From Ceratodon purpureus (lineage: Eukaryota > Streptophyta > Bryopsida > Pseudoditrichales > Ditrichaceae), in the NCBI GenBank assembly GCA_014871385.1, contig CM026426.1, positions 38,347,799 through 38,411,798 on the forward strand: a stretch of DNA of 64,000 nt, given 5' to 3'. The notes under the pieces were generated by a model that ran no database searches, had not been told where the DNA came from, and was given only the letters and a program-made list of their open reading frames with translations. Positions within the stretch are counted from its first letter, which is position 1. Each line of letters opens with the position of its first letter. Positions 13,930-53,464 of this stretch are shown here, piece after piece. The position numbers and the translations under genes are program-made.

Positions 13930-13949
13930 GGGTGTGAGCACACTACGCC
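13930..13949 (+). repeat. left terminal inverted repeat of element A
   Basis: GGGTGTGAGCACACTACGCC. After the first G it matches the reverse complement of the right end (26,037-26,055) at 16 of 19 positions. It abuts the ATATA duplication. Confidence 0.8.
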
Positions 13950-14560
13950 CCCCTAAAAAGTATGTCGGAAAAGTACTTTTCTGGAAATACCCGGTAGAAA
14001 GTACTTTGTTTTCCCAAGTAAAACTGTGCGAATGCATTTCCCATCACAGAATATGATTGGAACATTGCTTAGCATTGTTATTGTAATCCCAAGATCACAA
14101 AAAAAGTTGTATGGAGTAACAAAAGTAGTACTTTTCCCAAATTTAAAAGTATGTCAGATTGTCAAAAATTATACAAAGTACAAATTTATGCTTAGTTAGA
14201 TGTTTTTTTTTGCTGTCATATTGTAACAGGGTATAGGACTCATAAAAGGCTACGGATCCTACTTGAAAAAACTAGGAGAAGCTGAAGATCCATGGAAATA
14301 TTCGCTGCCTTTTGCTTTTTTTTTTTTCGCAGCCTAGAATATCGTGATTTTCCTACGTAGAAGGCTTTCTGGACGTGTGCCCCGTGTTGGCTAACGGCCA
14401 TTTCATTCTTATCAGTTGTTTTATTAGACATTAATAATTGATGTGGCCGCCACTAAGAGTAGTTGAAAATGTACTTCCAAAATGAGAAGTACTTAGAGTA
14501 CTTTCCTGCAGAATTTTGAACCGTCGGATTACAATGGGCTCACATCTAAGCCGTATGCGT
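13950..14560. repeat. subterminal AAGTAC/GTACTT-rich zone of element A
   Basis: Seven GTAC words occur in about 610 bp, mostly as AAGTACTT or GTACTTTT on either strand. About 2.4 would be expected at random. Dispersed subterminal motifs are typical transposase-binding zones in TIR elements. Whether they bind anything here is inference. GAACCGTCGGAT near 14,519 resembles GAACGGCTCAGAT near 53,352 by the right end of B. Confidence 0.5.
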
Positions 14561-14666
14561 TGTTGATAAGGTCCGATATAAGTGGATCTAGCCGGTTTCA
14601 AATGTAGATGGATCTTCTGTTAGTTTAAGGGATGGAAGGATTTTACTAGAATCTGTCAATCTACAA

Positions 14667-15423
14667 TTGGTTTCTCTTGCATGCACCTACAGTGCATGCA
14701 AGGGTTCTGAACGTCGACTGAATATGTTTTTCGGTGTTGCAAGGACTCTAAGCTGCGGCGCAGCCATCGCCAGGGTTTGCCACACAAATGTCTGGGGAAG
14801 GGCATCTTCCAAACTGCACACTAGTTCAGTCCCTCATAACATCTTACTACGTAGTGCGAGATCTCCCGCAGCTTGTGCAGCAGCGAATACCCATTACTAC
14901 CCTGTCTGCAACGTTGTCAACGAAGAGATTGAGAGTGTAGGTCAGCATTTCACCACCTATTCATGCGATAGTCCCTCAGATGATGTGTCTAGCAGTACCC
15001 ACGTATCCGAAACTCCAACTTCAAAGGTTGGAGATATTAGCTGCTACCTGCATCATTCAAACCAAACGCTGCAGTCCCGTGAGCGCCTGGTCCAGTCGCC
15101 CAAAACCTTGTTTGGATCGTTCACCATTGAGGGCGGTCTCCCTTGGCAGGAACTCAGGTGCTACCGCGACTGTCGAAGTCCTTCCCCTGCGCGTTCGGTG
15201 AGTTTCTCTTCAAGTTTATGCAGAACTTTTGAGTTCCGATTATGTACTTGTTTTGCTGTCAAATTTATGTTCTTTGATGGCAACATGTTGTACTTGTTCC
15301 CCACCGTAACTGCACGTAGGTCCAGGACAAGGCTCTTGCAACCTCTATTTTTTCAGAATGTGATCTGCCTTCTCTAACCGCGTAGTCTCTTCTGTGGGTT
15401 CATGGGTCTCATCACTTGTAGCA
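14667..15423 (+). other. leader ORF / possible 5' exon upstream of transposase-like gene A
   Basis: An open frame runs 14,667-15,377. Part of it (SETPTSKVGDISCYL, then SPKTLFGSF) resembles the ORF at 39,804-40,150 in element B (VEETPVSKQGNRDFYL, then SLFMSPVSLCYS). The shared position and similarity suggest a short upstream exon or upstream ORF of this family. A 3' splice-like CTTGTAG lies immediately before the ATG at 15,424. No known domain. Confidence 0.4.
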
Positions 15424-18400
15424 TGGGGGACCAAGCCCGGAGACAGAGGTTGAGGCCGTGACGTGCTGGTCTTGCGGAGAGGGCGTCATCAATGGAAATT
15501 GTAGAGGCTGCACGGTTAGAGAAGGCAGAGCGCAATCGGTTGTACCAGGAACGCCATCGCAAGAGAATTTCCATGAACTCGGAAGGAGGAGAGACGTGTA
15601 CGACAAACACAGTGCCTGAGATTTCAGATGCCATTTCTACGCGAGATGAATCTAGAGTTGCTCAGATTTGCACCCCTTCGCAGGCAAAAACGCACAGATG
15701 GATCAACCGTGTAGTGTCTTCCTATAGTTCAAGCTTGGTGACACAATCAAACCAGAGTAAGTCCAAACAGAAAGGACGTCGTGAACAAGGGCGGTGGGCT
15801 GAAAAGAGGAGGAGAGAAACATCCAAAGCACTATTTGACAGTCACGCAAGTATTTCTTCAATACTTTGCATGAAAACCATCTTGTATCGCATGTACACAG
15901 CAATCCCATTGTACAATGTTGCTGTTACTTGATGTACTTCAACACCGTTACTATTTCACATACTGGCAAAGAAGTACTAACAGTGTCAAAAATTCTCCCC
16001 TATGTTACTCTTTTTATTTCAAGGTGCAAAAAGTATGTTCCTTACTGAAAACACTAAGGTACTCTTAGTATCACATGTACTAGTTCTTATATTCAGTGTA
16101 CTTGCGAAATTACTTTGTGTACAAATGGATTTAAGTAATTTGTATTATTATGATTTAGGGTACAATCCGCATGTAGTTTTCATAATCTAGGTAGTACTCG
16201 ATGGGGGCAGTGTTGTATACTGAACTACTTTATGTTTTGAGTATGTACGTTTAACTATTACTTTTTAAAAGGCAGGGTACTTGTGGTATTCATGTTAATG
16301 CCGAAGATGTATTCGTTGGTACTCTGTGAATGTACTTTCGGTTTTCAATGTACCTGTAGGTTCAGATTGTCGGTTCTGTAGTACTAATAATACTTTCTTA
16401 TGTATGTGGGGTGTAGACGACATTCTTTTTGCAGTTCAAAGAGGCTCATCAAGAGTGTAAAATCCGGCAACATCGGTTTGGGAATCTGAAACCATGGTGT
16501 GAAACCTCTTAGGGACTGTAATGTGTGCTGCTGCATCTACCATGTAGAAATGGATCTCATGAAGGTAGGAGTGAACATCCTACGGGAGGAGAAGAGGCGT
16601 CTGCATGCACAAAAAGATTTCTCCTGTGAATGTGACGCTTGTTCTGCTTCTGTGGAGACTGCAACAGGTGAGGGTATAGGCTGTGATGCTCATCACAAAA
16701 TATTTAAGAGAATCACTCATTTATAGGAAGCTTGTCTTTGCAAGAAGCCAGAGTTCAATGAATGGCGCAAGCTCTCTTGTCTAATGGGTGATTGTGAAGA
16801 ATGTGGCGTAGATTCTCTAGGTTTTTGCCCATAGGAGATGTCTTCACTGGAAGAACCTAAACTAAGGTGGAAACACTTCTCGTATGTTACTATTGGCACT
16901 GACCGTGAGACAGGGAAGGCGAAGAAAAGGCTGCAAGAGGTATATGAAGAGACTAGTCCTTTGGATTTTGTTACTTACCTAAAACCCAAAGTTCAAGCCT
17001 TTATCAAGCATAATTTTATTGCCAATTGGCAGGATTGACAGTGCAAGGAAATGATGGAAGGTTTGCCCGAGGAAGTTATAGTTTCCCACATCGATTTTGC
17101 AGAGAACTATGAATTCCAGATTCAAAACGAAGTTTAGAGCATGTACTATATGTCTGAGTATGTGTCCTTATTGGTCCATATCACTTTGCAGAGAGTCCGT
17201 GATGTGAGTGGTGATTTGATCACCACAAAACATACACACTACTATATTTCCGATGACAAGAAACATGACAGTTTGTTCGTTTAGCATTGTCTTATGCTAC
17301 ACTGGAGGTGGTTGATTGCTAACGGGGAAAAACCAAGGGAGCATTGGGTATTCTCTGATGGCTGTGCAGGTCAATTTAAGGGGGCTACAGCAATGTATTT
17401 TGTTGCTAGATATCCCAGTCTCATAGGAGGCTGCTCTATGATCTGGAACTTTTTTGCAACTGGACACATGAAAGGTACTTGTTATTCTGTACTTTTGTAC
17501 TTCTTTGAGTGAAGCTCCCGTACTTTTGTACTTTTGTTACTGGAGCATATGTACTTATGTATATCTTGAGTAGAGACAGTGTACTTATGTACTTATGTGA
17601 GAGAAGCAGAATCTATATTACGGGATGGGGATGATGTGCTATGCAGTCAATATGGATTTATAGAACATTTTTGGATGCAATTGTAGGTGAATGGGATGGT
17701 GCAAGAGCCGTAGTCAAGCGTGCTTTAAGCATCAAACAGATTTGAAACCCTGAGAGGCAGCTGCAAAACGCACTCCAATGTGTTGAGTACTTAGAGCAGG
17801 GTTTCTCTAATAGAGCGCCTTCTTCGTATGCAGGGACTAGCAGCAGAGATATTCACCGTACCTTTTGGCACGTAGGTGAGAGCGAGATCAGCAGGGAGTC
17901 ATCGATGGCGTGTCACACTATTGCAGGCTCAAGATCTCTCCATTCCATTATGGAGAATTCTACCAGCAATAAGACATGTTTGCTCGTTAGACCTCTGTCA
18001 TGTTTCTGTGCATCGTGCATAGATAAAGACTGGGAGAATTGTGAGCAAACGACTCATGTCCCTAAGTGGAGGGCAGTACAAATTCAACCCAAAGCGCCGT
18101 CAGAAGAGCTGGAGACCCTGGATGACGACCGAGCCAAGCAAGTATTATTGTGTAATAGCATTACAGTTGTAAGGTTTTTTCTTACATCGAATTCAGATTC
18201 TTTAAATTCGTAACTTTGCTGGACACATGAAGAATAATTTGAGGATGCTCATCTACTGATTTATTCAAGTATACCGAGGAGAGAGGCTAGACGAAGTCCT
18301 TGACATTGGCAATAATTTATTGGTTCCAGTTGAACAACCAAATGAAGAGGGTGTTGACTTCTATATCTTGCAATGCCAACTACGAAAGTATAAATTGAAG

Positions 18401-18682
18401 GTTCCTCTGTTGTGTCCTTGGTTAGCCAAATTTGAAGCAAGGGATTTCGTCATTTAAGGCACTTATTACAAAAAGTCTAGCCGGGGTGAATATACATACA
18501 CATATCTTGAAAAATCAGTCGTAGCTCATGTTTCATCGCACCTGGTTCTAGCCTGCAAGTTCCGAATGAAATTCGCCCCATACTGCCTGAAAGGTGGGGA
18601 TCCAGTATATAAGATCTCCTCAGAAGTAGTCGATGTTGTGAGACACGCTTTAGCACAGATGTGGGAAAATGACGATGAGTAA
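15424..18682 (+). pseudogene. transposase-like gene, element A copy
   Basis: The start ATG at 15,424 (MGDQARRQRLRP) parallels MGNTAKRQRLQQ in copy B. Exon 1 is basic and charged. A GC-AG intron is proposed at 15,846-16,434. A Cys-rich block follows (CCCIYHVEMDLMKVG, CECDACSAS). Next come the DDE-like motifs HIDFAENYEF (about 17,090), ISDDKKHDS, FSDGCAGQFKGATAMYF (about 17,350) and, across a 212-bp intron at 17,475-17,686, HMKGEWDGARAVVKRAL. The C-terminal part (LSCFCASCIDKDW; DIGNNLLVPVE; CPW; KISSEVVDVV) aligns with copy B. Stops include TAG 17,135-17,137 and 17,282-17,284, and TGA after GAC at about 17,036. Known family relation: similar SDGC/HGKG proteins occur in many eukaryotes. Catalysis is inferred from motifs only. 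Confidence 0.7.
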
Positions 18683-21118
18683 TAATTATTGCAATTAAAC
18701 ATGTTTTTTTATAACTTAGTCACTTTCATACTATTTCACTGGAATCAACTAACCTGGACTATGATCCGACTGAAATCTGTGTGTCATGTGTGAGAACGAA
18801 CTTGGTTGTTATCTATCTTCCATGCAGGACGTTGATTGATTGGGTCAATATGCAAGGAGTTATATGTATACCATTATTTTCCAATGTCATTAAGCAAATT
18901 AGAGTCTTCCACCAGTCGTAGTGTTAGTTGAACATGAACATGGCAATAGAAATCAGACATGTATGATGCATATAAAAGTTATGTAGCAATATCGATGGAG
19001 CGCCTAAGTGGAACTGGAATGATGTTCACAATTAAAAATAATCAAAAACCGTTGGTTAAGTTTTTCCTCGGAAGGAATATCCACAGAAATCACTCCTCAA
19101 TTCACAAGACCGGCATCTAGCATTATTATGATCCGTCTAATTTTAACTCAAAAACATTCCTTTCTGAAATTTAAGACATATTGTCCACAGCCGCAGTCGA
19201 GTCTCACTATAAACAGGGATCTGGAGCAATAATGGAATTGCTTTATCTTTTGCAAAGGCACCACTGCTTTATAAAATACCTGTTTGTCAGCTATTAATAC
19301 GCAGCTTACTTGGGGTCTAGGCAGATACTGCAACTGGACAAACGCTTCACAGAATTTGAAGCATAAACCAAAATAATAATGGGTTATACTAGTAGACACG
19401 TCATGATATTGTCTTAAGTGCCTTCAGTGTCTGGGTAAATGCACGTTTCAAATTTCTTTAACCAAAATTTGAATGCAAAACGGCGATTTAAATGATAAAG
19501 GAAATTCAAAATGAATCAACAACAACCAAATAACATAACTATTTTATATTTAACTATATATGGATGTGCATGTATGTTGCCTTAAATAAAACCTTTTTGG
19601 ACAATTATTTTGATTTAGTTAATTTAGAACTCAAAGATAAGTTGTCAATTTTATTTGTTTTAAATATGGAAAGCGGATATAGGCATAGGTGTTATTCACA
19701 TTTATTTAAGATATTTAAAAGATTTTAATTTGAAATAATCTAAGAATACAATTTCAAGGTATGAAATAAGTTTAAACGCTTAGTTAATACTTGAATATTA
19801 GTGGATACGCGGTAATATTTCAAAATTACCTATAAGAGGTTTTCTAATAATGCTTCACATAATTATCCATTCTTTTTATTTTATTTATTTACATTTTTCT
19901 TTTTTTAACCTTCTTTATTCTTCTTGACCTTCCTCATACTTCATTTACTTTTGATTTTCCCTTGAATCCCCTTTCTTTCATCCTTCTTATTCTTCATTTA
20001 TTTTTTTGAAGCTTCTTCTCCCTTCTTGTTCTTGAATTTCTTTTATTTTGATTTCTTTTTATCAATCTTATCCATTCTTTTTATTTTATTTATTTACATT
20101 TTTTTTTTCAACCATGTTAATTTTTTATTATCCCTTTTTTGTTCTTCTTGTCCTTTCCTCATTTCATTTAATTTAATCTTTCAAAGCCTTCATATTTCTT
20201 CTTTTACTCATTCTTCTTTTAGTTGATTATATGTTTTCCAAACTTCTTCTTTATTATTGTCTTTTTTTCTTTAATTTCTTCCTTTCATTCTTATTGTTTA
20301 TTATTGTTCACGTTCCTCTTCTATTTTTTTATTTTTTTTTATTTTTTTTCCTCACCCATTCTTGTTTCTTGATATCTCAAAGTTTTTGTGGACTGAATGG
20401 GTTGGTGGGACAGACGCTGATCTGGATGTTAACAAGTACATGTGGCGGGAGAAGATAGAGCAGAAGGGTTTCTCAGTGGAAGAAAATGATTCTTTTTTAG
20501 GAGAATAGTCCGAGCGGGACGGAATCCAAAGCAATCAGATTGCCGCCTGAATGTGGCCGTTTGGAAACAAATATAGTCGATATAGCAACGTCGAACCTCC
20601 TCCTTTGTATTTCTGGTCTTTGGTATTTTTTTAGCTTCAATTCAGTCTCTGAGAACCGTAACAGCGTCACAACCTAGGTACGCATCTCTTAGTACTCTCT
20701 CATTCCTTGACCCTGTTGCGTGTTTCCTTACTCCTCTTATCAGTTCATTGCTTTCAAAGTTTTCATGTTTGTGTGCTTCAGCCTTCTTCCAAAGTGACAT
20801 TATAAAGTTGACGTCTTCTTAAGAGTTTATTTACGCTTGTTCATCTACGTTGTACTGTTTTTATTTGTTAGACTCAAGAGAATGCGGATGTGTTTTTGTG
20901 AATGCAAGTTCTTCTGGAAACGCAAGTGCATTGGAGGTGGCTTACTAGACCAGGCTTACCCTAAAGCAAAAAGGATTGGAGAGCAAATCAATGGAGGTAA
21001 ACGGTCCTCCAGAGCCCAGCAAAATTGATTTACAAATTTGTGTTCATTTTAGTTAAGTTCTACAATGCACAAATCTCTCCAATGTTCTGACCATAAACTT
21101 AGCAAAAGTTCCTCAATC
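18683..21118. other. non-coding middle of element A between the convergent genes
   Basis: No convincing gene. 19,440-19,850 is AT-rich. 19,860-20,395 is a pyrimidine-rich tract like those at 1-3 kb and 51.8 kb, with TATCCATTCTTTTTATTTTA occurring at about 19,865 and again at about 20,070. 20,395-21,040 has weak plus-strand ORFs only. The region lies 3' of both genes and probably includes their 3' ends. Confidence 0.45.
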
Positions 21119-23424
21119 TTATGGCACTATTTTCTTGCGGCTCCTGACTGTCGACTTGCAGGTGCCGTGATGCTTCTTTTTCATTTTGGTTTTCCTGATC
21201 GACCTGATCAGCTTCTCCTCCATCGGTGACGTTGGCTTCTCCCGTACTAACTTTAGTTTTATCGTCCTTTGCTTGTCTTGGCACTTGCTACTTCTGCATC
21301 GGCATCTGAAGCTGGGTATATCCCGGTCATCAGACTTAAAGTCCTCGCCGTAGTCTTGCCACACATGACAACCGTGGATTAGTAACAGTCCCTAGAAATC
21401 AGTTTAGGATTTACATAATAATAGAAACCTGGCTAGACGACGTAGAGGTAGGGCCTCATATTCGGTAGTACTACTTACCCAAGTCAACTCCTCTCCTGGG
21501 TAGATGTCACGTCTGGCAAAGAATGCCACGTGGTAGATATGGTCTTCAGCTGAGTGGATTCGAGGAGGCATGTCGATGACGTTGGCTTCTTCGCACATGA
21601 AACCACCAAAGTAACAATTTTTAAGAATAATTAGGATTACTAGACACTAAGCATTGAATTCCATTGTACCATGAACATTGTGAGCTAGGACGGTTCATGC
21701 CTGTGGTTTAGAAATCTGGCAACATTGCCATAGTGAGTTGCATCGATACATAGGGAGTTGTTGTCCGTGGCCATTATTTCTGATCGCCAACAAGCATCCA
21801 ACTGAAGCGTATAGGTTTGCCTAAACCAAAGAAGCTTGTGCACCAAGGGGTTCCGTTCGATCAGTTCACCATTAGTCACAATCTCCCCCGCGAGCTCGAA
21901 CAAAAACTTACCTGCTTGGATGTGCTCCACTGTGCTCCACTGTCCAGACACCCCAGCCTCGTGTAGAAGTATTGAAAACCTACCAATGACAAAGCAATTG
22001 TTAAGAACAAGATATTTAAAAACGCAAATTTCATAATGAAAATAGTAACTCTGTCATTTAGTTCATTCATCCTTACCTGGACTTCCGCATTCTGAAGAGA
22101 GGCCAAATTAGCCTCGTAGGACTCCACCATCAAGAGCGCCAACCGCTAGTCCTAAGCAGCTCCATCTTTAGCTTTCTTCGCCAACTCCTCGTCCAACTTC
22201 AACCCCTCTATCTCCATTAGTAAGACTGTGTGCATTGTCAGGAAGTACTCCAATTTTGACATCGAGGCTATCCCCCGATCCTCCACCTTCACTATGGAGT
22301 TAGCAAATTCAGATTTCGTCCCCATCCTTCTAGTGGTCGTTACATTGCCAGGTGGCGGGATAGCCCTCCTCTACAACAACACCAACAGTCAAAAGAAACA
22401 AACAGTTACTAGTTAGAAACTATGCTCTTAGGATACATGTCGCATTCAGACACAAACAAAAATCCTAGAAATTAACCTTAATCAGAACAGATGTATATTA
22501 CAATGCAATTCATTTGAGTTGATCTGGCTAATGCAATGCAAAGTATAGACCTACTCAGAATATTATAACACTGTCCCATTAGATCCAAAGTTCTAATTTT
22601 CAGTAACTTTCTAAATTAGATCTCGAAATGAATCCATTATCATTGCAGTGTCTTCTATAACATAAACCGATATCACACGCCCTAAGCAAATTGCATTGCA
22701 TTAACAACTGACATAATAGGAAAAACACAATACACTTTAGTGCACATACCTTAGTGGGCGTTGCAGCCTCCATTCCAGCGATCGGCTCCAACTTCACCTT
22801 CACCGCATCATCAACCTTGAGACTCCTCTAAGTCCGCTTCGTCACTTTTGCTCCTGTGTTGATGGCAAATTGGAGCTTCGAGAGATCCTGTTCGTACTTT
22901 CGCCGCTGGCTATTATTCGTCTCTTGGCCATACAACGCCCAGTTGACCAAGTTCTTCTGGTACTCAAAGACTACGCCAACAATGAATTGTTTCGTCACGC
23001 ATCTTGGTATCTCTTTAGGTCCGTGTTGATACACGATTGGATGCAAATTCTTTATGCGGTTCATTATCCCTCGCACCTTGCAATCTGACCACGAGTATCC
23101 ACCACGCTCCTTAACCCCCTCCGGCTTCAAACCAAACTCCAGCATGGACTTGTCGCTTATATCCTTATCCTTCCGACAACAATGGGGTTGATGGAGTTCG
23201 GGCCGCACTCTAGATTGTACCTGTCGCGAAAGTCCTCCCATATTAGCACATTCGGAGGATATTTTAGGCCATCTATCAACTCCTGCAAGTCGTCGATGTC
23301 GAGAAAGCGCTCCTCCTCCTTCACGGTCATCCCTAGGTGTACACTGCCCTCAGACTTAGTCTTACCAACCTGCACTCCCATCCCAGATCCCGCACTCCCT
23401 CTAGACTGAATCTTCCACTATGCT

Positions 23425-23910
23425 AGAGATGCGTCAAAGATAACGCCGTTTAACGCGGTTTTTAACGCGGTTTAACGTGGATTTTTTGACTAGTCCAAAG
23501 TGACGCGCCCTGTGACATAGGTCTTTTGATTATGACGCGGCGAGTCATAGCACGTTAAAACGGTTTAACGTGTGCACGTCATCTCTGTTAAACCACGTTA
23601 CTCGGAATAGCCAAAAGTTAACTGGGGTCAGTAAATCAAGGGAGTTACTTTTTGCCACGTGAGCATTTCCCGCTGTTTTTCATTCCACGTTGGAGTTTAC
23701 GTGGATATTTCCCTCCATTGTCCATTCCACGTCTGATATTGCATGGCAGTTGACGTGACAATTGATTTCAATGGTTGAGATGGTGACACGTGTCATGATC
23801 ACGGATCGGAGAATATTCGCGGATGCGAATATGGTGTCGGGTTTTGTATGTTTAGAAAAACGATTTATGTCGACGGTTTTTGTGTGTTTACGTAAACGGA
23901 GTGTGACGTG

Positions 23911-23957
<47 letters not shown>

Positions 23958-24988: not shown

Positions 24989-25059
24989 GACATGGTGTTC
25001 CCATCCCTCGAAGTCAATATTACTCCCTCTAAACCCCTGGACTTGGACTTCCTCGACAT

Positions 25060-26036
25060 TGGTAAACAACCGCGACGACAAGATCTGCGCCCTACCACTA
25101 CCCTAAACCCTAAAACACTAAACAGATATTCCAACTCTTACCCTACACGACCAACCGACCCTTATCGCAAAAACTGAAAGGAAAATAAACCTTAACTTCG
25201 ACAAAAGAATCTAACTCTAAATCCTCTAACTCTGAATACCCATCTCATGTACCGCACCCAAGAACAAAACACCTCTCAAACAAACAGAGACCCTAAACAA
25301 TGACACACAAACAACTGAAATCAAACCCCAAACCAAACTCTCAGCACAACAAACGCATCTCACAAAACTGTAACTCTCAATCACTCTCTCCTTACAGAAA
25401 CCTCTATCCCTCAAACCCTGTAACCCACAATCCCTCTATCCCTCACAAAACATCCAACCTGAACTAACAACACAACAATAAACAAACAATAAAGATAACC
25501 CTCCTCTACAAAACTCTCAACTCATAAGCAAATTGCTAAACCAAACCCTCAGCAAAACAAACGCAACTCACAAAAACTCTACCTCTCAATCCGTTTATCC
25601 CTCACAGCAACCTCTAAACTTCAAATCCTCTAACACTGGATCCCTCTATCCCTCACAAAACCCCTTAACCCTCCATCTGAACTAACAACACAACGACTAA
25701 CATCATAACAAAAGACCCTCCTCTTCAAAACTCAAAACTTTTAAGCAAATTACGAAACCACAAAACACAACCGAGACTAGACCAATACCACCAACACCAA
25801 CGAGACTGGAGAGACCTGGAGGTGCGAGACAATGACTACCGGCTACAACAGGTGAGACCCAATCCGCTTACCTGAGACCACCGGTCAAGTCCAACGTTAT
25901 TGGTCGATCTGAGCATGGGCGCACGTGGATCGCGGTGGTGATATTGACGGCTACAGTTATCCACAGAAGTACTACAGATACTTACTAGCAGAAATGTACT
26001 TTAAAAGTAATCCTAAAATCTGCCCAAAGTATACCC
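25060..26036 (-). promoter_or_regulatory. 5' region of the element A SET gene and right subterminal zone
   Basis: It is rich in CCCTAAA/AACCCT telobox-like words (25,080-25,720), common in plant promoters and leaders. A segment near 25,810-25,880 (CTGGAGAGA, GGTGCGAGAC, CACCGGTCAA) resembles 51,040-51,090 upstream of the SET gene in B, so the two copies share 5' sequence. The last 90 bp contain AGTACT, GTACTTTAAAAGTA and similar words. No TATA box is clear. Confidence 0.4.
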
Positions 26037-27845: not shown

Positions 27846-27878
<33 letters not shown>

Positions 27879-41951: not shown

Positions 41952-43599
41952 ACCTCATTCTACTTGCGCTTCAAAGAGGTCCACCCAGAATGTAGTGTGC
42001 GGAAGAGGGCTTTTGAGAGGTTGAAGTCATGGTGGGTGCGAAAACTCAAGGAGAGGAATACTTGCTGTTGCATATACCATGTGGAGATGGACATGATGAA
42101 GGTTGGATTGAGCAACCTCAGGGACAAAGTCAGGGGGCTCCATGTGCATACCACATGTGATTGTGCGTGTACAGTATGCACAAGCAGTAAGGAAGGGACT
42201 TGTTGTGCGCATGAGAATACTTTCAAACGAATAACTCTAATGTGGGAATCATGTGTTTGTCCAAAAGGAGAATTTGATATGTGGCATAGGCTTGAATGTC
42301 TCATGGGCAATTGTTCTAGCTGTGGTTTCCAACTCTTTCCTATTTGCCCGCATGAGTTGTCTGGTTCTAACACCTTTCTTGTTAGATGGAAGTGTTTCGA
42401 GTACTACCACGTGGGAGTGGATGCTCAGTCTGGAAAAGTGAAGAAACATCTTTGGGAAGCTTTCAAAGAGACAGCTGTTCACGAATTCCTATCTTATATG
42501 GAGAAAAAAGTGACCACCTTTATCACACACAACTTCAAGGCACGATGACAAGATGAGCAATGTCAATTGATGATGAAGAATGTTCCGGAGGGAGTGGTTG
42601 TGTCACATACCGACTATGCAGAGAACTACACTTTTGCCATTCAAAATGAGGTCCAGAGCTTGTACTACTTCAGTACTAGTGTGACCATCCTGGTGCACAT
42701 TATGATGTGGAAAGAAGGAGAGCAGACCATGAAGCAGACTCACTTCTATATATCTGATGATAAGGCTCACGATTCAACTTTTGTTCAACATTGTCTGACG
42801 TTGCATTGGGATTGGCTGGGTGATTCAGGGTTGACACCGGAGGAACATTGGGTCTACAGTGACGGGTGTAGTTCCCTGTTTAAGTGCGCGACAGCGATGT
42901 ACTTTGTTGCACGCTACTTGGCGCTCACTGGGGGTTGCAAGATGCGGTGGAACTACTTTGAGTCGGCTCATGGAAAAGGAGAATGGGATGGGGCTGGTGC
43001 CATGGTGAAGAGGGCGCTTGCTGCTGAGCAGATCCAAAATCCATTGAGGCCCTTACAGAATGCCGCTCAAGTTGTAGAGTTCCTGGAGGAGAAATACACA
43101 GAGCGCGTTGCCAGCTCATATGCTCATGCTAAAACTTCCCCTCTTTCACGTGTGTTTTGGTTGATAGGAAATACAGAGGTGGATCATAATGATAAGAGTT
43201 GTAAGTGTAATACTTTGCCCGACTCAAAGAGTCTCTACTCTATTATGGGCTTCTCTATGGCTGATCCGACTATGCTTAGGACTCGAGAGTTGTCATGCTT
43301 CTGCGTCCCATGCATTGATGGTGATTGGACTGAGTGTGAGAACTTGACGCATGTGCAGGAGTGGGCTGTTCAGAGGCTGTGCCCGATGAGTGCAGGAGGT
43401 GTAGCACAGCAAATTAAAGAAATTGACAACGAGGCTAATTGGGTGTATGACGGCATTTCAGAGGAGGTCGGTGACTTGGTAGACATCGGCGACAATTTCA
43501 TGATTCCAGCAGAAGAGGAGAACGAAGACAGGGTGGAATTCTACATTCTCCAGTGTCAAGCAAAGAAGTTTGTGTTAGCAGAGCCCAAGACTTGCCCTT

Positions 43600-43616
43600 G
43601 GGGGGGGGGGGGGGGG
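43600..43616 (+). repeat. 17-G homopolymer breaking transposase-like gene B
   Basis: It lies after TGCCCTTG (Cys-Pro-Trp). The upstream frame ends 24 bases later, while the correct downstream frame (VFRAGDVVIRA) is one register away. Copy A has ordinary codons here (CPWLAKFEARDFVI). Confidence 0.9.
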
Positions 43617-43867
43617 TATTTAGGGCTGGAGATGTTGTGATCAGAGCAAAGTATTACAAGAAGTACGGACGTGGTGAAAAGACGTATGTACTCTGCGACA
43701 AAGCAGTTGATGCACATGTTGATGCCCATCTGGTTGAAGCTTGTAAATTCTCTATGGTTCTAGCTCAACACAGGGTTAAAGGTACTCCTGTATACAAGAT
43801 GTCAAGTGAAATGCTTCAGATATGTGAAGATGCCTTACGAGGGTGGTGGGCGTTCAACGAAGATTAA

Positions 43868-45008
43868 GTACAAGTTGGTCCACTTTGTACACTGATTTCA
43901 GGATTGTTTCTCATCCGACGTTGGTTTTAGAAGTATTGGTCCTGTGATGATAGAAGTCAAACAAATACTTGGGTAATGTCTGACTGAAAGTGAGCTCTAG
44001 AGATATCCCGCTATCCAAGTGCTCCCCTTTTTTTTTGCTTCAGTCATCTATTGTCTGGCATAGTAGTCTGTGATTAAGAGTACCTGCAATCCCTTTCTTT
44101 TTTTTATTCTTTATAACCTTCTTTTTATAATTTCATTTTGTACCTTCTAATGTCACTCTCTTTTGCGTGTGTGCCTCTTCACTGTAGTAACACCCATCCA
44201 TATTTTTTTTCATTTCAAGTCAGGTTGGACGATCATGGTTCTACATTTTGCTGGATATTAGGTACTGTAGTTTTTTTTCCTTTTTGTTTTGGGCCTTCTA
44301 CAGGGAGCACTGGATAGTGGTATCTCAAGAGCTCATATCTGAGGATAGCACTGTTATTGTAGAATGTTGGAATTGGGAGCAATCGGTTTAGGGTGAGAGG
44401 TTTGTTTCTCATTTGACGTTGGTTTTAGAAGTACTGGTTGGTGTTTAGACAAGTTCTAAGACTACTCAAACAGTACCATTGAAACATTGATTCTAAGAAT
44501 TTACAAGTGAGTTTATAAACTCAAGTTTCGGCTTCGAGCTGTAGAATTTGAATGGTTGTATATTTATCCGAGTTGTTCTATGTTTGCTTCAGAATTGTTG
44601 AAGTTTCATGAGTCCCAAAAATCCTTGCATTTGGTCTATTTGTACATGTAGTGCATCAAAAATGTACAAGGAGTATATTCTGGATATGTACGTGTAGTAT
44701 ATCAAAATGTACAAAGAGTATAATCTGGATATGTACGTGTAGTATATAAAAATGTACAAAGAGTATGCTCTGAATACATCTTCGGTAGTAAAAACAATAT
44801 ATTGGCAGAAATATTGTTCAAGATTAATCCCTTTTATGCATAAACAAAAGGCTTGCAGTTGAAAGTCTAGAAAAATGTGCGAGTGTGGTTCTGCTTTACA
44901 CAAGGATATCACAACACATATGTGGAGTCATCTTCTCCTAGATGGTTTACTGGCTGACCTTCGGATGGCAAGTGGTAAGGCATCGTCTCTACACATTTTA
45001 CTCATACA
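43868..45008. repeat. gap between convergent genes of B, with 45-bp tandem repeat
   Basis: The 45-bp units are at 44,661-44,705, 44,706-44,750 and a partial copy at 44,751-44,778, each with ATGTACAArGAGTAT and ATGTACGTGTAGTAT. The phrase GACGTTGGTTTTAGAAGTA occurs at about 43,917 and again at about 44,415. A minus-strand frame over the repeats encodes Tyr/Ile/Ser repeats and is probably not a gene, although LCKAEPHSH near 44,900 could be a decayed post-SET exon. Confidence 0.6.
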
Positions 45009-47089
45009 CTAACAAGTAAATCGAGGTAGGTCCGGATCATCATTGTTAAAATTAGTGCCATAGTCCCAGGTTAGTTCCTCTCCAGGACATATGATACGAC
45101 TTGCAAAAAATGATACATGATAGAAGCGGCATCTACACTCTCTATCAAAACAGGTATGTCCACTAGGTTAGAATCTTCACACCTGTAATGACAGAGGCCC
45201 ACAGTCATGCCATATCGTAGAATGTGAGAAGAAAGACCGTAGAGTATGTAGAATATGGTCGCAAATTCTAACCTGTGGTTCAAAAACCTGGCCACATTTC
45301 CAAATTGAGTAGAATCCAAGCACAATGCATTGTGGTCGTCTAGTTTCCGCTCAATGGCCCAGTCAGCATCAAGTTGCAAGCTATAGGACTGACCCGCAAC
45401 TACCCCCAAGTTCCTAACCATTTGCTCAGCATTTGTTAAAATCTCTCCGGCCAACTCAAAAATGAACGCACAACTAGGTATTAGCTCAGTCGTCCGAATC
45501 CCCCACCCCGTAAGGGCTGTAGGAAAAACCTCTACTTGAAACTTCATCCCCTGCTAGACAACACAATTGCCACAATCACTATGACACCTACACTTGACAT
45601 TGCACTTCTTAAGGAAAAGACGAGGAACATGACCTCGGCACACTGATTCGCCATTAAAACACCGACTACCCTTCTTACAATAATGTGCATCTTCTTCTTT
45701 GTGATTGTAGAGATAAGAGTCCTCCACAATACCTCCTTCGCTATATGCAACTCCTCCCACTGGATCGGCTTGGCACGCACAAGTACCATTCCCACCCAAG
45801 CATTCTTGGGAACATAGACAGTAGTCCCCGGGGCCAAGGCTCTCAAGGGTGGTAGGCACGTATGCTTGGTCATAGACCACGCTAGAATTAACATATTGAA
45901 AGTGTCTCATAGCAATATCAGACTGACCAACAAGGACAGGGATCCTCTCGAGCCCCTTAGACAAATCTGCTGCATCATACCAAGCTTCGGCCTGATTGAA
46001 TCCCATCCCAATAGACCACCTTCCCCTCGTCATACTCTTAAAAATAGAAAAGAAAAGTTCCAAGGCTGCTTGGGAAGACTAACAAAAGCACAAATGCAAA
46101 GAAATCACGAAGGATCACAAATAACACAAATGGATGGAAAATTAAATACAGAAGCCTTGTCTCGGCCCTGTTAGGGAGACCTCAGTGATGAGGTAAGATA
46201 TATTAATTTACCTGCAAATCCGTTCTACACAAGCACTCTACCGCACCTTAATAGATCAAAAACCAAAAAAACAATCCACTAAAAGCAATCCTACAGATTG
46301 CTCAAGCCCTCATTCTAAGTGGCTACCCTCTCCGCCGTTTTTGTGAGATTGCGCCACCTACCTTGTCGCCCTTGACCTTATCATTCTTTCTCCCTTCATT
46401 CTTACGACCCTTAGCTCTGATTGATGCCGGGGATTCCTCTGCTGCTTGCTCTGCCTCCTTGGCGGTGCGTGCTCTGGTCCGCACATTCGTTTCAGGGACA
46501 ACAATAGGACTTCCACTCATCCCAACAATCTCGGCCAGCTCCTTGTACGTGGTCTTGTCAGCTGAATAGACATTCTCTATCGCCCCCTCAAGTCCCGGCC
46601 CTGAGTCATCGTCCACAATTGGACCCGTTGCTCTCTTCGCTCTCAACTAGAATGGAGACTGGGGCAAATTAGACTTCGACAGCCCTTCTACTTCTCCTTC
46701 CGCTACTTCAGCATCGGTCACGTCGGGCGCTCCTTCCGCCGCTCCAGTATCCTTCGACTGTCCGTCTTCTCCTTCCATTGCACCACCCTGTACCTCCACC
46801 TGCCTTGAGGCTCGCACATCCTTGGTATCCGCGCCTACGCCACTACTCACTACATCCTCCTTCTCCTTTACCCCCCCCCCCTCGGCCTTCCTCCTTGTTA
46901 CCTCCATGAACTTGGCTGCAGCCTCCACCTGCACCAAGGTATCTACAAAACCCGAAGCCGTGGCTCCTCCACCATCCTTACCATTCTCTCCTCAAAGCAA
47001 CCTGCCCTTGCGTCCCGGCAAGCATTGCGACCCAGGCTTGGCTATCTCCTTCCTCGCGGGCTGCGGCGAGACCTCCTTCTCCTTTTCCG

Positions 47090-47530
47090 TTGGCGTTCCC
47101 ATCTCCTTCGCTACAGCACCGTCCCCTTCCTCAGTTGTCCCCGAATCCTCCTTCCCCTTCTTCCTCCCGCTCCTTGCTGCGCCACCCTTCTTCGGCACTG
47201 CCCCTCTATCCCCTTCCTCAGCTCTCCCCGTATCCTCCTTCTCCTTCTTCCTCCCGCTCCCTGCTGCGCCACCCTTCTCCTTCGCTACAGCACCGTCCCC
47301 TTCCTCAGCTGTCCCCGAATCCTCCTTCCCCTTCTTCCTCCCGCTCCCTGCTGCGCCACCCTTCTTCGGCACTGCTCCTCTATCCCCTTCCTCAGCTCTC
47401 CCCGAAACCTCCTTCTCCTTCTTCCTCCCGCTCCCTGCTGCGCCTCCCTTCTTCAGCACCGCCCCTCCATTCCCTTCCTTAGCTCTCCCCGAATCCTCCT
47501 TCTCCTCCTTCCTCCCGCTCCCAATAATCC
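47090..47530 (-). repeat. 28-29-aa basic repeats in the SET protein linker
   Basis: About five tandem units on the coding strand of the type GRAEEGDRGAVPKKGGAAGS then GRKKEKEDS. Alternate units share GAVPKKGG or GAVAKEKGG, which suggests a two-unit duplication. A 1-nt frameshift near 47,565 joins them to upstream coding. The long plus-strand Pro/Ser-rich ORFs here are antisense shadows. Confidence 0.75.
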
Positions 47531-48153
47531 CTGCAGCCTCACCCTGCTTCTTTCCACTTCAACGACGCTCAGTCCTTCATCCCTCTTCCTCGCCCCTGCA
47601 GCGATGCCAACACTCCCTCCTTTATGAGTGCTGCCCCTTCCTTGACATGGACTTGACAGACCCTCGAGCTCCACTCCTTCCACATGGACTGAGGTTTCTG
47701 GCGGTGGCAAGCTTATGTCAAGTGAAGGATCACCGTCTCCAGTTTGGTCTGAAGCCTTCCCCAACTCAGCATCAGTGCTCTCCGAAGTATCACTATCTCC
47801 TTCCTTGACGGTAGTGCCGGAGCTAGAATGTAGGGGGGTCATCTTGGTGTTGTTGTCCTCTTTGTCAGAACCAGAATCGTCTCCCGACTCCAGATCTGGT
47901 TCACGTCCCTAAAGATGAGCACCATCCGAAAGACATGCCATCACCACCTTCTCCAGTGGCCTCTCCAGCATTGGTTGGTCTCTAGATTTAATGTTGCCGC
48001 CCCTGACAACCCGTTGCGGCACTCCATGAAAATCCTCTGGAGCGCCTCCAGACCATGCTGGCTGGCTTGTCTCCCCTTCGACTGTTCGTCTTGCATTGTT
48101 GACGGCCTTCTGAGGTGATGCAAACCTTAGGCTAGAACCTGCCACCACACATC

Positions 48154-48912
48154 CTGTTAGAGTATATAGAATATGGTACCGAATGTAATTGCAGTCGACT
48201 AGCACAAATGAACCAGTACTATCACTACCTATTGGATTTGAACTGGTGGACCATTTGTACAAGTCCGCAATTCTAAATGTACTCTATGACCTCTATGACT
48301 ACCACGTAGGACTTCTAGTACCAAGTTGAATAAAGACAAGAAATACCTGTTGTAGCTCCGTCAAGTACAATGTCGTCTGCGTACAGCACCGTAAGTACAT
48401 TTCAAGCACTATATCATATAGAGTACATAAAATACTTGCTCTAAGTAGCTGCATGTACCTGAAGATTAGGCCTAATATACAAATATGACATTTCCAACGC
48501 CTAACAAAAATCACCGAGTACTATGCAATACACAATAATATACTGGAATTCAGTGAAGGAACTTCCTGTACACATATTGCATTTAGACTTCGACACTAAT
48601 ATACATGTTCAGACACATGCTGTTAATGAACCTGGACTTCATATACACTGTGCAAGTCTAAGTTGTCTCAGATCACAATCAGGTGAAAGCTAGCAACCAT
48701 AGCACGTATAGAGTGTACAACCTTACGATCCAACAATATACTTTCACTACTTTCTATGACAAACTTCTAGAATTCACCTAAACTGGAACAACCGCATACT
48801 ACATTCGCGGACTCCATAGTACATAACACTAAAATTCCTACAAAGCACATATCTAGAATCAACATTGCAAAGCACATATCCAGAATACTAGCACAAATTT
48901 AGATGAACTTAC
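48154..48912 (-). other. intron 1 of SET gene B, GTAC-dense
   Basis: Donor GATG|GTAAGT after VPSDG, acceptor CTAACAG|GATGTGTGG. By eye about 14 GTAC words in 759 bp. Confidence 0.6.
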
Positions 48913-50848
48913 CATCGGATGGCACCTTCGCCATAGCCTGCTCTGTTCTCTCCTCCATTAGTCTCCGCCTTTCTTCGGCTACTCCAAGCATCCTAGCCTT
49001 CTCCACCAATTCCGCAGGTGGCTCTCCCCAACCGAAACTCCGATGCCATTCCGGGTGACAAATCTCCCCGCATCCTATGGCCACGCACTTGTAGCTACGT
49101 GCAAAGACCACTGAAGCACAGAAAGGATGATACAAGTGTCTACACGAGTTAACTACCATGTCATACTACGGGAATGGGAAGGAACACAAGCAGCAAGCGG
49201 TAATCCTGATGAAGCTGGTCTCATCTGCAAAATCAAACGCTCCACATATTGGATCCTTGGGCGCATACACCATTGGACTTGAAGAAAAGCTCAGAGTACT
49301 CCTCCCTTGCTTCAACTGGTACTTCTCGGCTGCAAAGGCATCAAGCTGCAACTGGCCCGACTCCAATTCTCTTGTCAATGCCTGGATCTCAGCTTCGGCG
49401 GTCTCCAGCTCCCTCTTAGCGGCCGCAACCTTGACCTTCTCCTCTGCCAACTGCTCTTGAATTCCCTCCATCTTTATTTTCTCCTTGTACACATCCTGGC
49501 CTTGCTCTTCCAGCGCTCTAATCAGCCCCGTCTTCTGCTCCTCTTGTTTCTTCAATGTGCCTATGCCCCATTCACTTTGCTTACTCTTCCAAATGGCGCC
49601 GTCAAGCCGTTGACCAGCCTCCTTCTTCAGCTCCGGCTTGTACTTCTGCTCCAAGTAAACAGCTTGCATCAGACCCTCCAAATTTTGCAGCCGCTCCTCC
49701 ACTTCCCCCTTCGCCAACCTCCCAGCACTCTGTCCTCGCAAACCGGTATCCTCCTGCAAGCACACACCCGATGCCATGGCGGATTCCAGCCCACCCTTCG
49801 ACTCACCCGGTGGCCCACGACCCTCCACCCTCACCACATCCCCTTGCTCGACCTTTCCCTCCCAGCCAGGTTCAACCTTAATTCCTCGCCACTCCTTACC
49901 TCGGACGTCGACCTTCTTCTTACCCTCAGTGCACCTAGAGTCCGCAATAGACTTCCTGAGCTCTTCAAGCTTTGTCCTGTCCAAGGTATACTGGCCCCTC
50001 TGTTGCTTGTTTGTCTCCTCCCCGAAAGCACACCAATTGACAGGACCACCACCTTCCTCATACTCCAATGCGATACCTTCGGCAAACCTCACCGTGATCA
50101 TGTTTGGATTCTCCTCCTCCCCATGTTGATACAGAATTGGGTGTAGATACTTGACCCTGTCCACAACCTCCACGACTTCGCAACCCTGCCAATAGAACCC
50201 GCTCCGACCACCATCTCCGTAGGGCTTACCAAACAACCTGCGCACAGTGTCGGAGGAGGTCGTGCCTCTACGGAAGTGATGGGGATTGTCTCCCTCGTTG
50301 GGGAGTCCATATTCAGCCTGAAAGTCCGCCCTCTTCAATTCCCGCGGAGGCTTCTTCAGCCTCGAAATCTCGTCGTCAACGTCTTCCACGCACATGAAGG
50401 CCTTCTCAGACCTCACATTTCCCTTCCCTTTCTTCTTCGCTGTGGACTTTGCTTCCGCTCCAGCTTCTTCTTCCAGCTCGTCCTGGCTATCACCCCGACC
50501 TCGTCTCGCGCCTGAAGCCTTCTTCGACAGCTGCTTTGCAGCTCCTCCCTCCACCTCTTCTCGGCCGCGACTTGGACCTTGTTCCCCTGCGCCACCTTTC
50601 TTCGGCAATTCCTCGGCATCAGGCTCCTCACCAGATGCCCCTCCTCTGCCTGTTCCTCCCCGCAGCCTCTTCCGCGGACCCTCCCTCCCGACGTCGTCAT
50701 CATCACTCATCGCCTTGCGGCTCCTCCTCTCTCGCGCTCCAAGTGCTCTCCCCTTCCGCGCACTGGATGTGTCCCCAGAGCGCGCACTCTGGCTTTGCTC
50801 CATTACTCTTTCACCCCTCCACACAAGCCCCGCCCACGTCCACCCCAA

Positions 50849-53445
50849 TGTCCCTTAGAGTCACCAACCCAACAAAAATTAAAACCCCAAAAGGAACCCC
50901 ACAATCCAAGCTAAGCATCGCCTCCCCCTAAATCCATAGTGGAATACATGCAAGCCCAGCCGATTCATTGCAATTCGCCAAGGCTTCTCCTTCCATCGCA
51001 CCTCCGGTGGAGCACACTGCACACTGCCGTCGACCCCAGCTGGAGAGAGGTGCGAGACGATGCTCACCCCGACCACCGGTCAATAGTGCCTCGCTCATCC
51101 TTCACACCGGCGGTCACCAGTAACTCTCTCACACCTTAAACCCCGTAACTGGTGACCACCAGTCACTAAACCCTCCACATTAATTCCCGCCCGTTTGCTC
51201 GCAGTCATGAACATCTAATACCACACCATAGCCGCCTTGAGCATTAATTGACACCTCAATAGTGCACTCCCAGCTGCTATTTCTCTCCTATCCTAGGGCC
51301 CGACTAATTTACTTAGTTACCATTCTCAAATAAATCCCCAAGAACGCTAATAAAAAATAAAATAAATTGCTTGTATGTTGAAACGTATAAGTGAATGTTT
51401 AAATTTATTTTCCTTTCATCAAAAACACTTAAAATACATCTACATGAAATTATAAAATTAAAAAATGAACTACATATATATAATATAATTTCCCATATTT
51501 TTCTTTTTCCAACATGCTAATACCCGTGTTCTTATTTTTTTCCCAAAACTAAGAAAAAACACATACGTACAAGTTAACCTCCAACATATGATAAGTATTG
51601 TATTTCATAATTTATTTAAAGGGGCGTAGAAATGATGTTCATCTATTAAACCCTATTTCGAATCATGAAAACGGCCATGCTAATTTTTACCCTCTCATGT
51701 CTTATTCCAAAAAAACATTCGTATGAACAAATCTACCTTTATTGCACATTAATCTATTTCAAAATTGCTTTATGAGTCGATGATGATTAAAACTCCTAAA
51801 CTTCACTTTCATTTCTCTATTACACCACACTTTCAACAACTTATTCTGTCATCCTTCAACATTTATTTATCCTTTTTTTCCCCTCCGGTTTTTTTTTTTT
51901 TTCCTCCCCCTTATTATTTATATCATTTGATTGCTTCATATTTTCCTCTTCTTTTATTATTCTTCCATTTATTAAATTTTTATCCTTTCTTTCCCTTCCT
52001 TCCTTTAAATGTTTCTTATATTTTTCACTTTCTTTACTTGCCCTTCTTTTATTTGTTTTTCTTCCTCAATAGCTTTTCCCATGAACCGTATTTTAATATT
52101 TCATATTTTTCTCCTCCCCTTTTTATAATTCTTTTATTTTCCTTTATTATTCTTCCTTCAAATCTTAATTTTTTATTCCTTTTTTCCTTTTTCTATTTAA
52201 ACATTTCATATAGCTTTATGTTTTTGGAATTTATCCTTCAAGCTTATTTATTTTTCTTCTTTTTTTTTCCACAAGTGGAAGGGATAAGTGAAAAATAAAA
52301 TAAAAATGTAAAAAAAAACAAGGTTATAATGGGGATGAAATTGAGAGAGAACATTGGGAGTGGAAGCTTGATGAATGAAAAAAATGTCAAACAAAGATTA
52401 TAATGGAGATGCAATTGAGAGTGAATAGTGGGAGTAGAAGGGATAAATGAAAATATATGAGTAAATAGAAGAATAAAAAAGAGGTAGACAATGGAGATGT
52501 GAATGAAGAAGAAAAGTGCGAGTAAAAGGGATAAATGAAAAATATAAATAGAAATGGAAAAATAAATATAAAAATTATAATTAGGATGAAAATGAGAGCA
52601 AAAAGTGGTAGTGGAAGGGATAAATGAAAATAGTGGATGAAATGAAAAAAATAAATTAGGGGAAGAAATGATGTTCATATCTTAATTTTTAAAATTGCAC
52701 CTTCTATTATTAAAAACTTAAAGTAAATATTGACAGAAAAATGTAAAAAACAAAAAATAAACTTACTCTATTCAGTACTTTCTATGGCATTTTTCTAGTT
52801 CATATTCAAGATGTTCAATTAGGAACACTCTATAATCTTTAAATAACAAATGTATAAATAATCAATATTCATTGTTTTCAATTTATATCTTATGATCGTA
52901 TTAAAAAGAGGATCATATTAGAGCCATACTATATTTTAAATTACAATAATTTGTATAGTATTTTGGAAGGCCCTTCAACAAACCAATCACTTGACTGAAC
53001 TAGGCTTCACTTGAAGTTCATCTGAAAAAATCCTGAAGTCCAGACAACTCCATAGCTCTCATACGCTTAACAAATATACAATTTTCAAGAGCAGGATGAT
53101 TCCACATTACATAGATGATGGGCAACGTCGTCTGAGTTGAACTAGGATGCTGTGTGATTTAATCAACTTTAGATCCTGCCTCCGAGGCTGGACATCAACT
53201 CCCGTCAGTCTATGTATTTGAACTCAGCCACGTGTCGAGTCGAGAGCAGCTGGCCCATATGGAGCTCCATCGAAGGGAATCATTAGCGTCAGAGCACGCT
53301 ATTTTGATCAGCTCATCTAAATCGCCAAACCCCTCCTCTTGTATGGAATCTGAACGGCTCAGATTGAGTAAGGTAGAGTACTTATTGTACAATTAAGTAC
53401 TCAAAGGTCCCAATGGTACAATACAGTTTTGCCAAAACTGCACTA
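50849..53445. other. 5' region of SET gene B plus AT-rich insertion
   Basis: 50,860-51,170 resembles the 5' region of the A copy (CTGGAGAGAGGTGCGAGACG; CACCGGTCAA). 51,200-53,340 is AT-rich with no gene and no counterpart in A. The last 120 bp before 53,446 are GTAC-rich and belong to the subterminal zone. Confidence 0.45.
51765..52678. repeat. foldback: pyrimidine arm and purine arm around TTCCAC-AA-GTGGAA
   Basis: About 500 bp of pyrimidine-rich sequence runs into the small palindrome TTCCACAAGTGGAA at 52,267-52,280. It is followed by about 400 bp of purine-rich sequence of matching style (GGGATAAATGAAAATA repeats). The arms are similar rather than identical. A run of purine repeats (AGTGGGAGTAGAAGGGATAA and variants at 52,350-52,620, roughly 60-90 bp apart) is present in the right arm. 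Confidence 0.5.
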
Positions 53446-53464
53446 CCTCTAGTGTACTCTCCCC
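53446..53464 (-). repeat. proposed right terminal inverted repeat of element B
   Basis: On the minus strand GGGGAGAGTACACTAGAGG, 15 of 19 identical to the right end of A. It is preceded inside by AGTACTTATTGTACAATTAA and AAGTACTCAA, the same GTAC-rich style. Confidence 0.6.

Follow-up and report, generated by a model that had tools for sequence, protein, structure and literature searches.

Plants silence transposons by methylating histone H3 at lysine 9 (H3K9), a mark written by SUVH and SUVR enzymes. DNA transposons that carry a SET gene of their own have been described from the oomycete Phytophthora, in HarbingerS and MuDR families (Kojima and Jurka, Repbase Reports 2014, as cited in the accessible text of PMC12730594). 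Here, we describe a large and recently active family of cut-and-paste DNA transposons with terminal inverted repeats (TIRs) in the moss Ceratodon purpureus, whose members carry a SET gene taken from a SUVR4-type gene. Two members, element A (positions 13,931-26,056) and element B (38,953-53,464), lie in a 64,000-bp stretch of contig CM026426.1 (C6:38,347,799-38,411,798), referred to below as the window. Both are degenerate and mutually divergent, and both belong to one high-copy TIR family. An earlier first-pass annotation of the window had read them as a transposon family with a histone methyltransferase gene as cargo.

How does the moss family compare with described systems? MuDR elements generate target duplications of 8-9 bp, from which the 4-bp duplications of the moss family differ. 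They differ as well from the 3 bp given for canonical Harbinger elements in the accessible text of PMC12730594. As described there, the oomycete HarbingerS and SET-MuDR elements resemble the moss family in having the SET gene inside the element in many copies, but their transposases are probably of other superfamilies than that of the moss family and they live in other hosts, and that text mentions no SUVR4 ancestry, plant intron, or RING-like partner, all of which belong to the moss family. In its short TIRs, 4-bp duplications, and one large transposase the moss family recalls Sola, a resemblance of description that does not lead us to file it there; the duplications of Sola2 are AT-rich in the part of PMC3627910 available, whereas those of the moss family are mixed (TGTT, CCCT, TCCT, ACCA, CAGA, TTTT, and AGGT). 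Fungal TET/JBP transposons and Vandal (MuDR) also carry their own modifiers of chromatin or DNA methylation. The TET/JBP enzymes act on 5-methylcytosine, whereas the moss SET protein is a predicted writer of histone methylation. In primates, the domesticated single host gene SETMAR has SET fused to a transposase; it brings the two together as the moss family does, but as one fused gene and not as a mobile family with a separate SET gene. What is new in the moss family is the land plant host, the SUVR4 ancestry, a transposase without a Pfam family, and the RING-like partner. The earlier statement that this arrangement had not been described stands for the SUVR part, since no plant or SUVR case of a SET-bearing transposon was found in the accessible literature (most subscription papers and Repbase lay outside the search), and has to be corrected for SET-carrying transposons as such, which are known from oomycetes. 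In the accessible part of a 2026 review of plant transposon gene capture (PMC13317346), the terms histone and methyltransferase are absent.

That the family consists of discrete mobile units is seen from its ends. Five copies were fetched. For most of their length, four of them are 97-99% identical to the fifth (C6_93); in one of the four, identity falls to 89.5% in places. Two complete copies were measured, at 15,084 bp and 13,825 bp. Both ends were read in eight copies, three fetched whole and five by their ends only, and all eight have the 17-bp TIR pair GGGTGGAAGTATGCTAG and GGGTGGAAGTACACTAG, with one change in one copy. Exact 4-bp target duplications, the seven named above, flank seven of the eight; one has none. 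In two further copies (C6_14 and C7_142) the ends were not where they were expected, and of one more only the left end was read. The first-pass annotation had foreseen GGGTG...CTA ends with short target duplications at other copies, and these were found; a 5-bp duplication as the rule was rejected in view of the exact 4-bp duplications. A divergent subfamily has the left end GGGTGAAAGCATGCTAG, and a GGGTGNRAGYAYRCTA-like end is therefore common to the family. The left ends of the L021/L029 subfamily were looked for and not found. Open frames elsewhere, also foreseen, occur in both genes: transposase exon 2 is stop-free in 37 of 78 matches, and 11 of 109 SET rows span 382-383 of 383 residues without a stop.

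Read from the left, the copy with intact ends on contig C10 (the C10 copy) encodes transposase exons 1 and 2 on the + strand, followed on the - strand by the SET exons, a middle exon, and an N-terminal open reading frame (ORF). How regularly do these genes occur together? The genome was searched with the transposase (best 78 of 1,473 candidates scored, all 78 listed) and with SET (best 109 of 1,081 candidates scored; another SET search lists 150 rows). A first count, which used 119 SET positions (the 109 rows and 10 of the 150) and tabulated strand and not side, found a SET within 8 kb of 60 of the 78 transposase loci, on the same strand in 0 of 60. A second count used 107 of the 109 SET rows, a limit of 10 kb, and both strand and side. 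It linked 59 of the 78, and all 59 pairs are convergent: the SET lies 3' of the transposase and on the other strand, at a median gap of 1.3 kb. In 1000 random placements, 0.9 linked pairs were expected and 6 was the maximum. Eight of the 49 loci without SET in a preliminary count were fetched; all eight carry one, and three of them belong to the 18 left unlinked in the 8-kb count. SET is linked at at least 63 of the 78 scored transposase loci. With the TIR-to-TIR units in eight copies, this bears out the claim that the SET gene moves inside the element.

The same picture is obtained from the other genes. The first eight SET hits comprised five SET/transposase pairs and three host-like genes without a transposase match, one trithorax-like and two SUVH-like by eye. 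In a systematic sample (every 13th of the 150 rows from row 15, 11 loci), a transposase lies within 5.2 kb in nine. One of the other two, L027, was considered as a SET without transposase, and this was rejected on extension, when a transposase appeared about 6 kb away. A search with the N-terminal ORF (2,512 candidates) gave 79 rows, or 61 places once second pieces are left out. SET lies within 10 kb at 43 of these, on the same strand in 42, and the ORF is upstream in all 43; a listed transposase lies within 20 kb at 35, on the opposite strand in 34; and 11 of the 61 have neither in the lists. For annotation, this means that many "SUVR"-like genes in such a genome, judging from the 109 SET rows scored among 1,081 candidates, are likely transposon genes.

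Where did the SET gene come from? The nearest named relatives of the element SET are plant SUVR4 proteins (WIYLD plus pre-SET/SET/post-SET), most of them with WIYLD, and its nearest solved structures are the H3K9 methyltransferases EHMT2 and EHMT1. The SET structure of SETMAR (3bo5) is also among the structural matches. In the C10 copy, it matches PF00856 at 9e-17; PF05033 (pre-SET) is unreported there and is annotated on close environmental relatives. The host SUVR4 gene lies at C1:11,880,050-11,883,393, its three longest pieces matching the C. purpureus protein P0052 at 97%, 100%, and 91%. Element and host genes are 44-47% alike in amino acids over the SET part, and the element gene differs from its relative in lying inside a transposon. 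They share an intron. In the C10 copy it reads AACCACAG|GTTAGA...TTACAG|GTGTGAA, giving NHRCED, and the host gene is interrupted at exactly NHR^C, in the same position and phase. The source of the element SET was therefore an intron-bearing gene, and acquisition as an mRNA copy was rejected. Subfamily L004-L008 is without the NHR^C intron. Ten SET rows (C9:5,048,356, C6:69,465,468, C8:13,349,879, and seven more) have 269-amino-acid (aa) frames, one with a stop, and are 46-47% like host SUVR4, against 44% for the C10 copy.

The catalytic motifs are largely conserved. Among 24 element rows, NHRC is present in 17, EL[TS]WDYG in 19, post-SET CxCxxxxC in 20, and GWG in 20; three of the seven rows without NHRC run into the intron there, and four L004-L008-type rows stop short of the last two motifs. 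In a tree of 59 rows (six near-identical rows left out), element and environmental SET sequences adjoin SUVR4 (SUVR4 side 88/100) and fall into a main group (81/95) and a second, divergent one to which A belongs (93/85). The ratio of nonsynonymous to synonymous substitution rates (dN/dS) is 0.26-0.33 between subfamilies, and no upper 95% limit exceeds 0.50; this was obtained for five of the six pairings that four copies allow, pairings that share sequences and are not independent. Two further, nearly saturated, between-subfamily pairs gave 0.11 and 0.20. The SET gene was taken from a SUVR4-type gene and is under purifying selection. Because of the linkage, the persisting motifs, the low dN/dS between subfamilies, and the intron shared with SUVR4, it is a maintained part of the element and not a chance passenger.

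The transposase exons are in phase across their junction (CAG|GTGAGT ... CAG|ACCTCA), and three acidic residues are conserved: D221 (35/36), D306 (34/34), and D348 (28/30). Neither the C10 copy nor a consensus query, which is not a natural sequence, had a convincing Pfam match, and no PDB match was found. Harbinger and MULE transposases are absent from the Pfam families listed, where one weak Zea_mays_MuDR match (0.13) lies below the cut-off. Viral contigs searched with the transposase profile gave 0 relatives. Transposase dN/dS is 0.06 and 0.12 between subfamilies and 0.19, 0.35, and 0.49 within. An undescribed cut-and-paste superfamily on the C. purpureus sex chromosomes was reportedly noted by Carey et al. 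in Science Advances in 2021. If that superfamily is this family, the transposon has already been noted, its SET gene not necessarily.

What accompanies the SET gene? Upstream of it in the C10 copy, the N-terminal ORF (729 aa) joins the middle exon in phase; the middle exon, of low complexity, holds a stop, which a second copy is without. A search of 5.8 billion proteins, with 8,000 candidates scored, gave 13 homologues of the N-terminal ORF, and no function is named for any of them. At E values up to 10, these 13 members match the RING families zf-RING_Vps41 (11 members), zf-RING_16 (10, best 0.00099), and zf-RING_2 (8, best 0.0012), the matches of member 1 (P0157) being below the cut-offs. 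The PDB matches of the ORF, mostly to coiled coils, fall short of significance (best E 0.08). One SET and one N-terminal ORF match among environmental proteins both have a longest contig of 8,592 bases and are perhaps a linked pair.

Are the RING-like/coiled-coil and SET parts one gene or two? A single multidomain SET protein had been proposed at first; both parts are indeed present, and they may be two tandem genes. Favoring one gene are a donor after KGDK (AAG|GTAGGT) and a conserved CAG| just 5' of the SET start (C10, L030, L035, and L005 groups), in phase 0. Favoring two, four divergent groups have a basic tail followed by a stop at the end of the middle ORF (KRRRGAT*, KKKRGKR*, VKRTSKK*, and VKRTGRR*), and a separate ATG opens the SET ORF in the C10, L035, and L005 groups, whereas none is present in L030 and L032. 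At L051:973-4122, on C5 beside an element of the L027 subfamily and next to a transposase, there are two long - strand ORFs of 504 and 492 aa. The second is ParB-like by eye (IINGQHSVAASKSLIED), and they may be further cargo or a neighboring repeat.

How might these parts work together? A and B are old members of a cut-and-paste family, about 14-15 kb long in the two complete copies measured, whose own DDD/E-type transposase acts on 16-17-bp TIRs and leaves 4-bp target duplications. A SUVR4-type gene was captured from a plant genome, intron in place, probably before the present subfamilies split, and has stayed in the element as one of its regular coding parts alongside the RING-like/coiled-coil ORF. 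The element would supply, in trans, a SET protein that is active in methylating H3K9. Partnered by the RING-like protein, this enzyme would write the mark at element copies or insertion targets and so tune the element, through self-limitation or by steering insertions to silent chromatin, and not as a service to the host. The mobile unit with its ends and duplications, its linked coding parts, the kinship of its SET gene with SUVR4, and the constraint on that gene are shown by the sequences. That the protein is an active enzyme, that its target is H3K9, that it acts in trans, and that the element gains by it are all predictions, and we hold this explanation as a whole with moderate confidence. 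The first-pass reading of a SET-carrying transposon family is supported overall; its regulatory role is one that we infer.

Several observations weigh against this explanation. Of the C10 copy, the SET ORF, the middle ORF (488 aa), and the N-terminal ORF (729 aa) were scanned for WIYLD (PF10440), and none has it; a 120-aa ORF that follows the middle one lay outside the scan. The SET tree gives no single origin: the position next to plant SUVR4, as first expected, was recovered, while a single transposon clade was neither rejected nor shown (p-AU 0.443). The between-subfamily SET comparisons share sequences, as said, and constraint on SET (about 0.3) is weaker than on the transposase between subfamilies. 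Within subfamilies, SET dN/dS is 0.17, 0.43, 0.68, 1.28, and 1.37, values expected of copies decaying after insertion, yet weak selection would give the like. A and B are themselves broken, and expression, chromatin, and enzyme role are predictions from sequence.

The remaining points of this kind concern distant relatives. With a liverwort protein as query (P0034, Calypogeia fissa), 60 further transposase loci were found among 1,944 candidates, none within 5 kb of the first 78. At 20 of the 60, a listed SET lies within 12 kb, always convergent; 40 have none listed within that distance. Four of the 40 were fetched. L057 and L060 have both SET and the N-terminal ORF, arranged as in the other elements, with SET pieces 25-57% and N-terminal ORFs 28-33% like those of the C10 copy. 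In the 8,000 bases fetched at each of L058 (C2:21,102,618) and L059 (C10:16,190,129), no SET or N-terminal ORF was found, and L058 has an open transposase frame of 650 aa. At L058 the bases searched extend about 6 kb beyond the transposase, and at L059 3.8 kb; because the SET of L027 lies about 6 kb from its transposase, absence at these loci is likely, not proved. Genes apart, which the first-pass annotation had set against its own reading, were thus found only at such a distance, at two of the four loci fetched. The two loci without SET in their 8 kb, of which L058 keeps its transposase frame open, mean that transposition may not require SET; a SET more distant than the stretch fetched, as at L027, is the alternative. 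On the supporting side, a tree of 34 transposase rows (19 of 36 database proteins used) places the 13 SET-bearing rows outside a group (88/99) of L058, L059, P0034, and 13 environmental proteins. The topology, in which basal forks are weak and several branches long, is consistent with one gain of SET. L058 and L059 are useful outgroups to date the SET capture. One transposase and one SET match among the environmental proteins both have a longest contig of 5,267 bases and are perhaps a linked pair.

Could the enzyme instead be turned on the host? We think self-directed H3K9 methylation most likely and interference with the host its main rival. The SET protein, perhaps with the RING-like protein, would then disrupt host silencing, by acting on another residue, by competing with SUVR4, or by silencing defense genes. 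Some transposons do encode modifiers of epigenetic marks or regulators of their own silencing (Vandal/MuDR and fungal TET/JBP, in the accessible text of PMC12730594), the family is abundant and recently active, with copies mostly 97-99% identical, and the RING-like partner could serve ubiquitination. However, SUVR4 and the H3K9 methyltransferases, the nearest relatives of the element SET, write marks and do not erase them, and any host target is hypothetical. Interference with the host is, in our judgment, the less probable course but one to be taken seriously. With a SUVR4-derived enzyme in a plant transposon, the question of whether such writers serve self-limitation or are turned on the host becomes testable.

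Does the chromosomal distribution of the family point to another role? The assembly has 362,488,568 bases in 151 contigs, and C6, with 110,524,308 bases, is probably one sex chromosome of C. purpureus. The genome has been given as 360 Mb, with U and V chromosomes of more than 100 Mb each, ~30% of the genome (PMC8000587, in the part available). C6, 30.5% of the genome, carries 45 of 78 transposase matches and 98 of 150 SET matches, an excess that, coming from best-scoring candidates only and from related copies, is a tendency and no measured rate. An enzyme whose main service was to choose or protect places of insertion in silent chromatin could explain it. The same excess would, though, result if copies simply built up on a sex chromosome that does not recombine, and the copies are not independent draws; targeting as the main role seems improbable to us. 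If C6 is indeed a sex chromosome of C. purpureus, a laboratory moss, the excess ties the question of self-limitation or action against the host to the origin of repeat-rich UV sex chromosomes. Extending the self-directed reading, one bryophyte capture might have founded a long-lived lineage with a full silencing module (H3K9 writer and RING-like partner), used by elements on themselves and on one another and shaping the heterochromatin of a moss sex chromosome. This we offer tentatively, as possible and still doubtful; if true, the lineage would be a natural case of transposons imposing, rather than escaping, histone methylation.

Might the SET gene do nothing at all? Plant DNA transposons commonly capture genes, and a captured SET could hitchhike without function, as Pack-type gene fragments do. 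Frames are broken in many copies, and dN/dS is higher for SET than for the transposase, with values above 1 in two close pairs. A passenger should, however, show dN/dS near 1, whereas the five between-subfamily pairs stay at or below 0.33; its linkage should be scattered, whereas order and orientation are kept even where SET pieces are only 25-57% alike; and the catalytic motifs of the element SET mostly persist. A passenger role is accordingly very improbable. That two unrelated repeats often lie side by side, by chance in a repeat-rich region or as an assembly artefact, is refuted by the 59 linked pairs against 0.9 expected, the fixed spacing, the absence of same-strand arrangements from all 60 pairs of the 8-kb count, and complete units, TIR to TIR, that sit at unrelated sites between exact target duplications.

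Element A itself is bounded by target duplications at 13,927-13,930 (TATA, or ATATA if 5 bp) and 26,057-26,060. Its left TIR, GGGTGTGAGCACACTA (13,931-13,946, + strand), resembles GGGTGGAAGTATGCTAG and GGGTGAAAGCATGCTAG of other subfamilies, and its right TIR (26,041-26,056, - strand), inverted, reads (T)GGTGAGAGTACACTA. Between them lie a broken transposase gene (15,727-18,421, +; tblastn with the C10 copy, six stops in the matched pieces of exon 2 and one in exon 1), a SET domain in two pieces, the second with two stops (21,233-21,981, -), and a fragment of the N-terminal (RING-like/coiled-coil) ORF (22,870-23,324, -). A splits a host repeat, an uninterrupted second copy of which lies at 31,613-32,684 (31,613-32,355 and 32,414-32,684). 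The flanking repeat pieces (13,124-13,864 and 26,056-26,325) are 67-71% like this second copy, and the flanks, once joined, align across its empty site. The limits earlier drawn from the interrupted repeat were thus recovered. The 5-bp duplication drawn with them was not, TATA and ATATA being indistinguishable because the insertion site is an AT repeat.

Element B is flanked by CCCT at 38,949-38,952 and, assuming one base lost from the right TIR, at 53,465-53,468. Its left TIR (38,953-38,969, +) is GGGTGGAAGTATGCTAG, identical to the left ends of the eight copies elsewhere; its right TIR (53,449-53,464, -) resembles the C10-type end but departs from it in the outer bases. Compared with the C10 copy, transposase exon 1 (40,332-41,116, +) is 93-97% alike in amino acids, and exon 2, with DDD-like motifs (41,928-43,601, +), is 95% alike with one stop. 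The SUVR4-like pre-SET/SET/post-SET (44,931-46,078, -) is 86-92% alike, with one stop in each of two pieces and the intron at NHR^C, and matches PF00856 at 9.9e-8. The middle exon (46,326-48,163, -), with low complexity, a basic C terminus, and an 87-bp tandem repeat, has two stops. The N-terminal ORF (48,896-50,809, -), with a conserved unnamed region, a coiled coil, and a RING-like finger, is 80% alike and also has two stops. The first 9.6 kb of B are 88.5% identical to the C10 copy.

The two elements match each other, mostly at 38-79% in amino acids, on the + strand at A 15,742-18,679 and B 41,027-43,864 and on the - strand, SET included, at A 23,349-21,122 and B 50,419-44,940, as expected of two loci with the same convergent pair. 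They had been read as two copies of the family. They are of one family and not near copies: A is 32-48% (SET pieces) and 47-56% (transposase pieces) like the C10 copy, and B 86-92% and 93-97%, respectively.

Tandem repeats occur in and around B. The 87-bp units of its middle exon lie at 47,098-47,532, and units of about 124 bp, present once in B, occur about three times in the C10 copy (L016, near 2,460-2,840). Imperfect 74-89-bp repeats lie close to the right end of B (52,319-52,655). Outside the elements, direct repeats of 223, 84, and about 76 bp at 54,066-56,232 are perhaps a decayed repeat-rich gene, and a 78-bp repeat occurs twice at 61,761-61,946, with 108 bp between.

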